Source: Candidatus Endomicrobiellum devescovinae
Lineage (GTDB): Bacteria; Elusimicrobiota; Endomicrobiia; Endomicrobiales; Endomicrobiaceae
NCBI GenBank assembly: GCA_031267795.1
Contig: JAIRYK010000002.1
Span: forward strand, 1-34,785
Direction: 5' to 3'
DNA length: 34,785 bases
Of the stretch, positions 15,023-17,856 are shown in pieces. Position 1 is the stretch's first letter, and each line of letters starts with the position of its first letter. A program made the position numbers and the translations under genes. The notes beneath the pieces are model-generated. The model was not told the DNA's origin. It saw only the letters and a program-made list of their open reading frames with translations, and ran no database searches.

Positions 15023-15595
15023 CTATTTCCTGCATTCTTGGACTGTATATGTTGAGGTTGTTACTAATCTTTTAATCTCTGATAAGTCTATTTCGTTTAA
15101 AATAGATTTATCATAAGTAGTTCTAAAAAGATGCGCAATTCCTGAAGATTGAATTATACTGAGCGATTGTTTTATCATGTCTAAGTCACCTTTAAAAAAT
15201 AGGTTGTATTTATCTTCAGGAGACTTTATGTCCATAGCAATAAAATCTAAAAGATTTTTATCAATTAAATCTTTTAAAACTTTAGGATTTGTTCCATTAG
15301 TGTCAAGTTTTACAAATAAATTTAATTTTTTTATTTCTTCTATAAATTCCGTTAAATCTTTTTGAAGAGTAGGTTCTCCACCAGTTATAACAACACCTTT
15401 AAGAAGTTTTTGTCTTTTTTTAAAAAAATTGAAAACTTCCTCATCGCTTATACTCGTTTCAAATAAATGTGGATAGACTAACTGGGGGTTATGGCAATAT
15501 GGACATCTCATATTGCAACCTTGCGTAAAAACAATAGCTGCAGGAACCCCCGGATAGTCTATCAATGATAATTTTTGTAATCCACCAATTTGCAT
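15023..15595 (-). CDS. nrdG: Anaerobic ribonucleoside-triphosphate reductase activating protein
   Basis: From the ATG at 15595 this is a 190-residue radical SAM enzyme. It starts with MQIGGLQKLSLIDYPG, typical of this branch, and holds the iron-sulfur motif CNMRCPYC (Cys27, Cys31, Cys34). GGEPTL lies further on as the SAM-binding segment. It uses SAM to abstract hydrogen from a glycine of NrdD, making the glycyl radical. An alternative start at 15652 would add 19 residues overlapping the upstream small ORF; the family start fits 15595. It begins one base after the stop of the small glycyl-radical ORF. No Shine-Dalgarno is visible, so translational coupling is likely. Confidence 0.93.
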   Translation of the reverse strand: MQIGGLQKLSLIDYPGVPAAIVFTQGCNMRCPYCHNPQLVYPHLFETSISDEEVFNFFKKRQKLLKGVVITGGEPTLQKDLTEFIEEIKKLNLFVKLDTNGTNPKVLKDLIDKNLLDFIAMDIKSPEDKYNLFFKGDLDMIKQSLSIIQSSGIAHLFRTTYDKSILNEIDLSEIKRLVTTSTYTVQECRK

Positions 15596-15596
15596 T

Positions 15597-15776
15597 TTAT
15601 TTACAAGGACAATATGTATTACGTATCTTAAACTCTTCTTTCTTGCCTTCATTCCATAAAGAAACAGGTCTTAAGTAACCTACAACTCTTGAATAAACTT
15701 CGCATTTTGTCCCTTCAATACAATCCCTCTTTGTCTTTAACTCGTTGATTTTTTCCTCAATTTCGTTAGCAGTCAT
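15597..15776 (-). CDS. Standalone glycyl-radical domain of class III ribonucleotide reductase
   Basis: This 59-residue ORF contains CEVYSRVVGYLRPVSLWN and GKKEEFKIRNTY. These match the C-terminal glycyl-radical segment normally fused to NrdD, with Gly33 as the expected radical site. The first 20 residues form a charged helix (EIEEKINELKTKRD) and the end is CPCK. It has a strong AAGGGGG ribosome binding site, sits 19 bases after the nrdD stop in a different frame, and abuts nrdG. I infer that it supplies the radical glycine in trans to NrdD and is the substrate of NrdG, in the way GrcA/YfiD serves pyruvate formate-lyase. I believe similar short proteins occur in other anaerobes, but this is unverified. 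Confidence 0.85.
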   Translation of the reverse strand: MTANEIEEKINELKTKRDCIEGTKCEVYSRVVGYLRPVSLWNEGKKEEFKIRNTYCPCK

Positions 15777-15795
15777 TTGTTCCCCCTTATTTAAT

Positions 15796-17856
15796 TTAGT
15801 TTACGCTAGCGCTTGCATATAACATATTTTCAAGCGCTTTTATCTGTTGATCTATTTCTTTATACTTTTCATTTTTACACTTTGGGCATTCGTGTTGTTC
15901 TCCTTCAAGATACCCGCACTTCGGGCAAGCGCTAAAAGTTGGCGTTATTGAAAAATATGGCAAACTATAGTTTTCGCATACAGTCTTTATAAAAGTTTTT
16001 AGGGCTTCAGTATCTTTAATTCTCTCGCCCATAAACATATGCATAACTGTTCCGCCTGTGTATTTGGACTGCATAGAGTCCTGCAAATTTAAGTTTTCAA
16101 AAATATCATCGGTATAATTTACAGGCAACTGACTTGAATTTGTATAAAAGGGAATATCGGCTTTTTCGCTTGCGGAAATAATATCTGGATACTTTTTTAA
16201 ATCAAGCTTTGCAAGTCTATAAGAAGTACCTTCAGCAGGAGTTGCCTCAAGGTTATAATTGTTCCCAGTTTCCTGTTGGTACTGAATTAGAATTTCTCTC
16301 ATAAAATCTAATACTTTTTCACCAAAAATTTTCCCTTTTTCGCTGCCGACTCCTTCTCCAAATAGATTCATGCAAGCTTCGTTAAGTCCGACTATGCCTA
16401 TTGTTGAGAAGTGATTTTTCCAATATTCGTTAAAGCGTTGTTTTACGCTCCTTAAATAAAAGCTCATATACGGATATAAATTGCTTGAAGTTAATTTTTC
16501 CAAAACATTTCTCTTTATTTCTAAAATCTGCTTAGCTGTGTCCATCATACTTTTGAGCCTTTCCATAAAGTCGGATTCATTTTTAGATAAGTACCCGAGC
16601 CTTGGTAGGTTTATAGTTACAACTCCTATAGAGCCAGTAAGAGGAGAAGCGCCAAAAAGTCCGCCACCTCTCTTCTGTAGTTCGCGGTTATCTATTCTAA
16701 GGCGGCAACACATGCTTCTTGCGTCTTCAGGTTTCATATCGGAGTTTATGAAATTTGCGAAATACGGAATGCCGTACTTAGCCGTAATATCCCACAAAGC
16801 TTTTATATTAGGATTATGCCAATCAAAATCTTGTGTTATATTATATGTAGGTATAGGAAATGTGAACACTCTTCCTTTAGCGTCGCCTTCAAGCATAAGC
16901 TCCAAAAAAGCTTGATTTAAAGTATCCATTTCTTTTTGGAATTCGCTGTACTTTTTGTCTTGGTGTTCTCCGCCAATAATAACAGGTTCGTCTTTATAAT
17001 GCGGGGCTACTGTTAAATCTAAAGTTAAATTTGTAAAAGGTGTTTGAAAGCCCACTCTTGTCGGTACATTTATGTTAAAAAGGAACTCCTGCAAAGCTTG
17101 CTTTACTTCTCTATATGTAAGTTTATCGTAATAAATAAAAGGAGCAAGGAGAGTGTCAAAGTTAGAAAATGCTTGAGCACCTGCGCTTTCTCCTTGAAGA
17201 GTATAAAAAAAGTTTACGATTTGTCCCAAAGCTGTTCTAAAATGTTTTGCTGGTTTGGCTTCAGACTTGCCTGAGACACCTTTAAAGCCACTTATTAGTA
17301 AATCTTGCAAATCCCAGCCAACGCAGTATGCCCCCAAAAGACCCAAATCGTGTATATGAAGGTCTCCTTCAGAATGAGCTTTTCTTATATTTTCAGTATA
17401 GATTTTGTTTAGCCAATATATTTTGCTTATTTCAGAAGAAATATAATTATTTAACCCCTGCAATGAATAAGACATGTTGCTATTTTCGTTTACCTGCCAG
17501 TCCAATTTTTTCAAATATTGGTCAACTAAATCTACGTTAAATGCTGAAGTTATTTCCCTGATTTTAGTATGTTGATCGCGGTATAATATATAAGCTTTAG
17601 CAGTTTTTTTATACAAAGAGGAAAGTAAAACTTCTTCAACCACGTCTTGAACTTCTTCTACTGATGGTTTCCTGTCTTCTAGAGAGTTTTTAAGTATGGA
17701 TAAAGCTTTGATGGCAAGTCTGTCTGCAATATCTTGCTCAAATTCTTTAGTAGCTTTTCCTGCTTTTGCTATTGCCGCAGCAATCTTTTTAGAATTAAAA
17801 GATTCCTCGCTTCCATCTCTTTTTACAATTGAACTAAAAATTTCTTCGTTTTTCAT
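15796..17856 (-). CDS. nrdD: Anaerobic (class III) ribonucleoside-triphosphate reductase, large part lacking the glycyl-radical domain
   Basis: This 686-residue protein has an N-terminal ATP-cone (VKRDGSEESFNSKKIAAAI, about 1-95) for allosteric control. A ten-stranded barrel follows, including SMCCRLRIDN with Cys383 and Cys384. The C-terminal zinc site has Cys644, Cys647, Cys657 and Cys660. It reduces ribonucleoside triphosphates to deoxy forms without oxygen. The usual RVxGYxRP glycyl-radical segment is missing: the protein ends in a helix (about 666-680, EIDQQIKALENML) and a short tail. That segment is encoded by the next ORF. AGAGGAAA lies before the ATG. A NrdR-type operator lies upstream. 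Confidence 0.95.
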   Translation of the reverse strand: MKNEEIFSSIVKRDGSEESFNSKKIAAAIAKAGKATKEFEQDIADRLAIKALSILKNSLEDRKPSVEEVQDVVEEVLLSSLYKKTAKAYILYRDQHTKIREITSAFNVDLVDQYLKKLDWQVNENSNMSYSLQGLNNYISSEISKIYWLNKIYTENIRKAHSEGDLHIHDLGLLGAYCVGWDLQDLLISGFKGVSGKSEAKPAKHFRTALGQIVNFFYTLQGESAGAQAFSNFDTLLAPFIYYDKLTYREVKQALQEFLFNINVPTRVGFQTPFTNLTLDLTVAPHYKDEPVIIGGEHQDKKYSEFQKEMDTLNQAFLELMLEGDAKGRVFTFPIPTYNITQDFDWHNPNIKALWDITAKYGIPYFANFINSDMKPEDARSMCCRLRIDNRELQKRGGGLFGASPLTGSIGVVTINLPRLGYLSKNESDFMERLKSMMDTAKQILEIKRNVLEKLTSSNLYPYMSFYLRSVKQRFNEYWKNHFSTIGIVGLNEACMNLFGEGVGSEKGKIFGEKVLDFMREILIQYQQETGNNYNLEATPAEGTSYRLAKLDLKKYPDIISASEKADIPFYTNSSQLPVNYTDDIFENLNLQDSMQSKYTGGTVMHMFMGERIKDTEALKTFIKTVCENYSLPYFSITPTFSACPKCGYLEGEQHECPKCKNEKYKEIDQQIKALENMLYASASVN

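Follow-up and report, generated by a model that had tools for sequence, protein, structure and literature searches.

A class III ribonucleotide reductase with its radical glycine encoded on a separate small protein in Elusimicrobiota and other groups

In the 34,785-nucleotide stretch of Candidatus Endomicrobiellum devescovinae DNA analyzed here (the window), the catalytic chain of a class III ribonucleotide reductase (RNR) ends before its radical segment, and the radical glycine lies on a 59-residue protein encoded by the next gene. The host organisms are bacteria of the termite gut. The split is conserved among relatives, the small gene is under selection, and the same arrangement occurs in several groups. 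We consider it probable, at roughly 0.85, that the two products make up a two-chain class III RNR in which the small protein serves as a radical subunit, activated by NrdG and docked non-covalently.

Organization of the locus

The genes nrdD, the small gene, and nrdG follow one another on the minus strand. NrdD (15796-17856, minus strand; 686 amino acids) has an ATP-cone, a barrel, a zinc motif, and a C-terminal extension. Its family assignment is firm, based on matches to TIGR02487 (548 bits against a cut-off of 326) and to the Pfam ATP-cone PF03477 (6.6e-23). The finger loop SMCCRL, with the radical cysteine region Cys383-Cys384 (16705-16710, minus strand), is invariant in a 45-row alignment (A3), and the zinc motif CPKC-x9-CPKC at residues 644-660 (15877-15927, minus strand) supplies Cys644, Cys647, Cys657, and Cys660. 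The roles given for the zinc motif and the finger-loop cysteines are those described for NrdD (PMC4493059).

The Pfam NRDD profile (PF13597, 562 positions) is divided between the two genes. NrdD covers positions 1-531 (E 3.4e-188), and the small ORF covers positions 526-562 (E 1.9e-10), its sole family match. The initial annotation, made from the sequence alone, had nrdD ending past its zinc site without a radical segment, which agrees with a match that stops at 531 of 562 positions. What follows the zinc site is instead an extension of 26 residues (15799-15876, minus strand), a feature of the split form that is predicted to be helical in the homologue L091 and that we propose as one of two docking helices.

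The small gene (15597-15776, minus strand) lies 19 nucleotides from nrdD in a different frame, with a Shine-Dalgarno sequence, AAGGGGG (15782-15788, minus strand), preceding its ATG at 15776. Residues 1-24 of the product (15705-15776, minus strand) form an N-terminal helix region, again judged from L091, and are the proposed second docking helix. The radical glycine is Gly33 in EVYSRVVGYLRP (15678-15680, minus strand), which does not vary among the 16 small proteins aligned; residues 25-38 are likewise invariant in this set, except for Tyr/Phe at position 28. The activase gene, nrdG2 (15023-15595, minus strand), is identified by TIGR02495 (215 bits, cut-off 131). Its 209-residue ORF opens at 15652, and the match begins at residue 22, which favors a start at the ATG at 15595, 1 base past the small-gene stop. 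The separate 59-residue ORF with Gly33, its own ribosome binding site, the change of frame, and nrdG one base on had all been annotated initially and are all confirmed. A class III RNR is expected to have its radical glycine at the C terminus of the catalytic chain, as known members do; here that chain ends at profile position 531 and the glycine is on the 59-residue protein. Thus, this enzyme is a variant of class III RNR rather than an ordinary member.

The small protein ends in a CxC motif, Cys56 and Cys58 (15603-15611, minus strand), a possible redox pair. This motif is absent from some split forms, the tails of Elusimicrobiaceae proteins are longer and Cys-rich, and some fused NrdDs, in Omnitrophota, likewise end in a Cys-rich tail. 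By analogy with class I and II RNRs, the CxC is possibly a redox tail.

The genome of the window (1.28 Mb, 24 contigs, 92.6% complete) has exactly two PF13597 matches, NrdD and the small protein. Profile search of this 92.6% complete genome found no second nrdD, which the initial annotation had named as a finding that would speak against it, no other NRDD match, and no PFL-type Gly_radical domain (PF01228). One class II B12-dependent RNR, out of reach of the initial annotation, is also encoded, and the class III enzyme therefore need not be essential.

Distribution of the split form

We tallied split and fused forms by hand from the search table for a panel of 99 related genomes, the window's own included, calling a locus split where the NrdD body ends at or before profile position 540. 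A class III RNR match was present in 53 of the 99: 32 split, 17 fused, and 4 unclear (degraded in G018, partial or weak in G012, G080, and G091). In every one of the 32 split genomes, the end of the profile is matched separately; in one of them, G023, the NrdD body is broken over two contigs. Extra small-gene copies occur in G082, which has two, and G084, which has three. The split spans several genera and two families, which by their named records belong to Elusimicrobiota, with Endomicrobium and Candidatus Endomicrobiellum nearest and Elusimicrobiaceae also represented. Class III RNR is evidently dispensable in the group, as nrdD is degraded by stops in G018, of the same genus, and many small genomes of that genus have no NRDD match. 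In a wider search, NRDD matches were found in 200 of 340 genomes of the phylum. In two of these genomes a second match stands out: G126 has an uninterrupted full-length one besides its split NrdD, and that of G173, which crosses one stop, may represent another split copy.

Scanning a single genome for each species yielded at least 582 pattern matches and at least 571 relatives, of which the best 80 were kept; these were ranked by likeness to the small protein, which enriches for split forms, and thus give no frequency. Among the best 80 of at least 571, the radical segment is a separate gene adjoining NrdD at 44 loci, fused at 25, and separate with no adjacent NrdD at 9. The remaining 2 are spirochaete loci that fall outside the motif used but are split and adjacent. 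Split loci were found in Desulfurellales, including Hippea (L057, L084, L092, and L093), Deferribacterota (L104, L105, and L128), Micrarchaeota (L099, L106, and L121), Spirochaetales (L096 and L100), and one Acidobacteria MAG (L112). We searched 16 whole genomes: 13 from other groups, two split Elusimicrobiota (L091 and L068), and one fused control (L059). No uninterrupted full-length NrdD was found in any of the 15 further split genomes; a long NRDD match runs over stops in G350 and G342, and pieces of the body lie on two contigs in G344 and G346.

A few of these loci carry longer radical proteins. In the Spirochaetales loci L096 (4995-5468) and L100, a radical protein of about 158 residues continues into a thioredoxin-like region with CPNC, as judged from Pfam matches below the curated cut-off. 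The L096 protein folded poorly from its single sequence (mean pLDDT 45). It is possible that radical carrier and reductant share one chain here. At L102 (4458-5177), a 240-residue protein ends in a radical domain (NRDD at 206-251 of a 260-residue frame); this protein is not NrdD, so the radical domain is also found fused to something else.

We built a tree by a quick method from 92 distinct NrdD bodies (65 split and 27 fused), leaving out 8 partial loci. The split and fused labels require 7 changes, at least 4 of them by starred branches; long-branch warnings, among them for Micrarchaeota, L112, L117, and the spirochaetes, make the deep number of changes unsure. Elusimicrobiota contain one split clade of 54 rows (support 99) with a single fused row inside it.

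Two genes rather than one interrupted gene

At the 44 adjacent split loci (among the best 80 of at least 571), the frame of the small gene relative to nrdD is random (15/15/14), and the gap ranges from -23 to 165 nucleotides. A Shine-Dalgarno core lies within 18 nucleotides of the small ATG at 40 of the 44; as a control, the same core precedes 146 of 1192 ATGs (12%) inside NrdD bodies. In G042 the small gene is on one contig with metE and nrdG, and nrdD is on another. Comparison of 21 small genes from the window's family (210 pairs) gave a pN/pS of 0.18 for the whole gene, 0.05 for the radical part, and 0.32 for the helix, values that are rough because mean pS, at 0.65, is near saturation. By this substitution pattern, the small gene is under purifying selection.

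These observations bear on two explanations that would leave a single gene. Neighboring parts in different frames, and the stops that degrade the nrdD of G018, are what a sequencing or assembly frameshift or a decaying nrdD pseudogene might show; however, the split recurs in 32 genomes across several genera and two families, the small genes have Shine-Dalgarno sites and new segments at the cut, and selection is purifying. We rejected this explanation, which has a negligible chance of being right, on the conservation of the split and the purifying selection. Close relatives are also split, the opposite of the frameshift among uniformly fused relatives that would have spoken against the initial annotation. 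Its view that the split is native, the radical subunit being a protein of its own, is instead well supported: the piece is encoded separately in all 32 genomes, the window's own among them, whose NrdD is without the segment, and the 15 further split genomes showed no uninterrupted full-length NrdD. A single polypeptide could alternatively be made by stop readthrough or programmed frameshifting from nrdD into the small ORF, and the two are in phase at 14 of the 44 loci. The random phases, the variable gaps, and the frequency of Shine-Dalgarno cores argue against this and led us to reject it, as does the separation of the genes on different contigs in G042; we regard it as very improbable.

Segments added at the cut

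Split forms carry additional sequence on both sides of the cut. In the fused forms aligned, 3-8 residues separate the last zinc cysteine from CEVYSR. In the 44 split loci, the NrdD tail is 22 residues long in most (range 10-34), and the head of the small protein is 24 or 27 residues in most (range 5-31). Tails and heads (33 and 37 distinct segments, taken at lengths of at least 18 and at least 14 residues, respectively) are amphipathic beyond all of 500 shuffles, a result that is not a probability because the sequences are related. The three Micrarchaeota loci have no clear helices, so the helices are not obligatory and other ways of docking must exist.

We predicted the structure of L091, in which the genes are in phase, as one chain with the intergenic codons as linker. 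The prediction had a mean pLDDT of 83.9 and a pTM of 0.78, and the fused homologues in its alignment impose the canonical placement of the radical domain; a second alignment with the small proteins as their own rows (A2) was misaligned by MAFFT and kept out of folding. Helices are predicted at 658-688 (pLDDT 94 and 90 in the first blocks, 62 in the last) and at 714-729 (85-91), the radical strands at 737-748 reach 80-91, and the linker at 689-710 is below 50. Class III RNRs account for all of the first 36 PDB matches (query TM 0.51-0.64). Amphipathic helices on both chains in most split forms are probably a docking clamp, in which the two added helices would pair and so stand in for the lost peptide bond.

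The one fused row within the Elusimicrobiota clade, L007/L059 (Candidatus Endomicrobiellum siamense), is grouped with four split ones with support of 100, and its fusion junction lacks both added segments. The plain reading of this one MAG is that the chains seem to have been re-fused. Re-fusion without the helices would suggest that both chains belong to a single enzyme, with helices that serve its split form.

Stand-alone radical domains

Some radical domains are found apart from any NrdD. The 9 unlinked copies among the best 80 of at least 571 relatives are all in Elusimicrobiota records; two of them, L058 and L095, lie near a contig start, where the neighbor may be cut off. Integrase, tail, or tail-fibre matches lie near L065, L088, and L097, and near L085 and L045 (G082) there is only phrog_1501, of unknown function. 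In the PHROGs search, 6 of 10 neighbors of the bacterial stand-alone copies matched, 3 of them to phrog_1501, and 4 did not. Separate radical-segment matches, below the family cut-off and in frames of 101-110 residues, also occur in 4 of the 17 fused genomes. Loci L048, L049, and L051 (G087, G093, and G095), in genomes with a fused NrdD, encode a protein of about 100-110 residues ending in an NrdD-type radical motif. From their sequence, these proteins are possible spare parts for a one-chain class III RNR.

Viral contigs yielded 123 relatives, of which the best 80 (L133-L212) were kept. By a rough rule, 58 of these 80 are stand-alone (one of which, L208, follows an NrdD body at a distance of about 1.5 kb), 15 are fused (three, L146, L154, and L156, in frames shorter than 160 residues), 1 adjoins NrdD, and 6 are without the pattern. 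An NrdD body was absent from 30 of 32 chosen whole viral records, which may be fragments, and present in two (G380 and G386). Of 10 neighbors in 7 viral loci, 9 matched PHROGs, including terminase, portal, tail, integrase, and helicase. Sorted by pattern class only, some viral domains have a helix-like head that resembles the one on the split subunit, some are minimal, and some have a zinc ribbon before the motif. INPHARED contributed 2 matches in 50,697 phage records, both without the helix and one annotated as anaerobic ribonucleoside triphosphate reductase. From these viral copies, it seems that viruses trade the radical part. We would guess, on the model of YfiD and Y06I, that the viral domains are spare parts. 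Phages may use the same interface, with stand-alone NrdD-type radical domains sustaining the host's anaerobic dNTP supply much as Y06I serves PFL; helix-bearing types may then be for split hosts and minimal or zinc-ribbon types for others.

Proposed enzyme and alternatives

We propose that the large chain, with its ATP-cone, barrel, Cys383/384, and zinc motif, would provide the catalytic and allosteric sites, and the 59-residue chain would provide the radical glycine. NrdG would make the glycyl radical on the small chain, either free or docked. Once docked, the Gly33 loop would sit in the barrel as in one-chain enzymes, and the small chain would hand the radical to Cys383 or Cys384. Control would pass through the ATP-cone, which in Prevotella copri affects how ordered this radical domain is, as described in PMC11226230. 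Should the small chain be able to dissociate, its release could be the means of both dATP control and oxygen repair. The small chain might conceivably be replaced after oxygen damage, as initially suggested; extra copies in some relatives and viral stand-alone copies fit replacement, but the genome of the window has one copy, apparently in an nrdD-nrdG operon.

The small stand-alone radical-glycine proteins GrcA/YfiD and Y06I, the latter from phage T4, raise the question of whether the small protein is a spare for oxygen-cleaved NrdD rather than a standing subunit. YfiD and Y06I act in this way for PFL and are named as the only validated spare radical domains in the cited part of PMC8683613. 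The extra copies in G082 and G084 and the stand-alone copies in other Elusimicrobiota and on viral contigs would also fit. However, no other radical glycine for this NrdD was found in the 92.6% complete genome, so the small protein would be needed for the first activation, and none of the 32 split genomes is without the small gene. We therefore think it very unlikely that this gene encodes a spare, and the initial annotation was right to set it apart from GrcA, though spare-type stand-alone copies do exist in the phylum. It is also decidedly unlikely that NrdD is catalytically silent or glycyl-radical-free and that the small protein serves another partner. The class II RNR could supply dNTPs alone, but the barrel, the finger-loop cysteines, and the zinc motif of NrdD are kept, the genome search found no PFL-type glycyl radical protein as another partner, and in the window both pieces remain next to nrdG, while in one relative they are fused.

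If the two-chain enzyme is a natural form, its radical chain could be produced, labelled, activated, and examined on its own, away from the barrel. This would allow direct tests of how the activase gains access to a buried glycine and of whether the radical domain has to swing out. The arrangement also shows a route to making an oxygen-fragile part separable.

Comparison with known systems

To our knowledge, the radical glycine of every class III RNR characterized so far is part of the catalytic chain. One-chain enzymes, such as those of phage T4, Thermotoga maritima, and Prevotella copri, share with the split form the barrel, the zinc motif, an RVVGY-type motif, and an adjacent nrdG; that of P. 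copri also has an ATP-cone, and one-chain enzymes are the nearest PDB structures to linked L091. The split form differs in that the radical segment is a separate protein and extra sequence flanks the cut on both chains. GrcA/YfiD and Y06I are alike in being small radical-glycine proteins that act with a large glycyl radical enzyme (described in part of PMC8683613). In contrast to both, the small protein here is NrdD-type rather than PFL-type, with no PF01228 found in the genome, and unlike GrcA/YfiD it is the only such segment found there and duplicates no enzyme domain.

Split RNRs of class II and in phages are known already. The cited parts of two papers describe catalytic chains encoded as two cooperating genes, class II NrdJa/NrdJb (PMC9669993) and NrdA-a/NrdA-b of phage Aeh1 (PMC3653736), but these belong to other RNR classes and are cut at other sites, whereas here the radical carrier is detached. 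The nrdD genes of phage phiAS4 and Lactococcus phage 949 are also in pieces; in the cited part of PMC3653736 these are single phages, with an unknown process or an intron, and no conserved split of the radical domain is described. The same source mentions split RNR genes in some cellular organisms, among which a split nrdD could be included. Our search of the open-access literature found no account of a class III RNR divided at its radical domain, conserved in cellular organisms or otherwise, and none of viral stand-alone NrdD radical domains.
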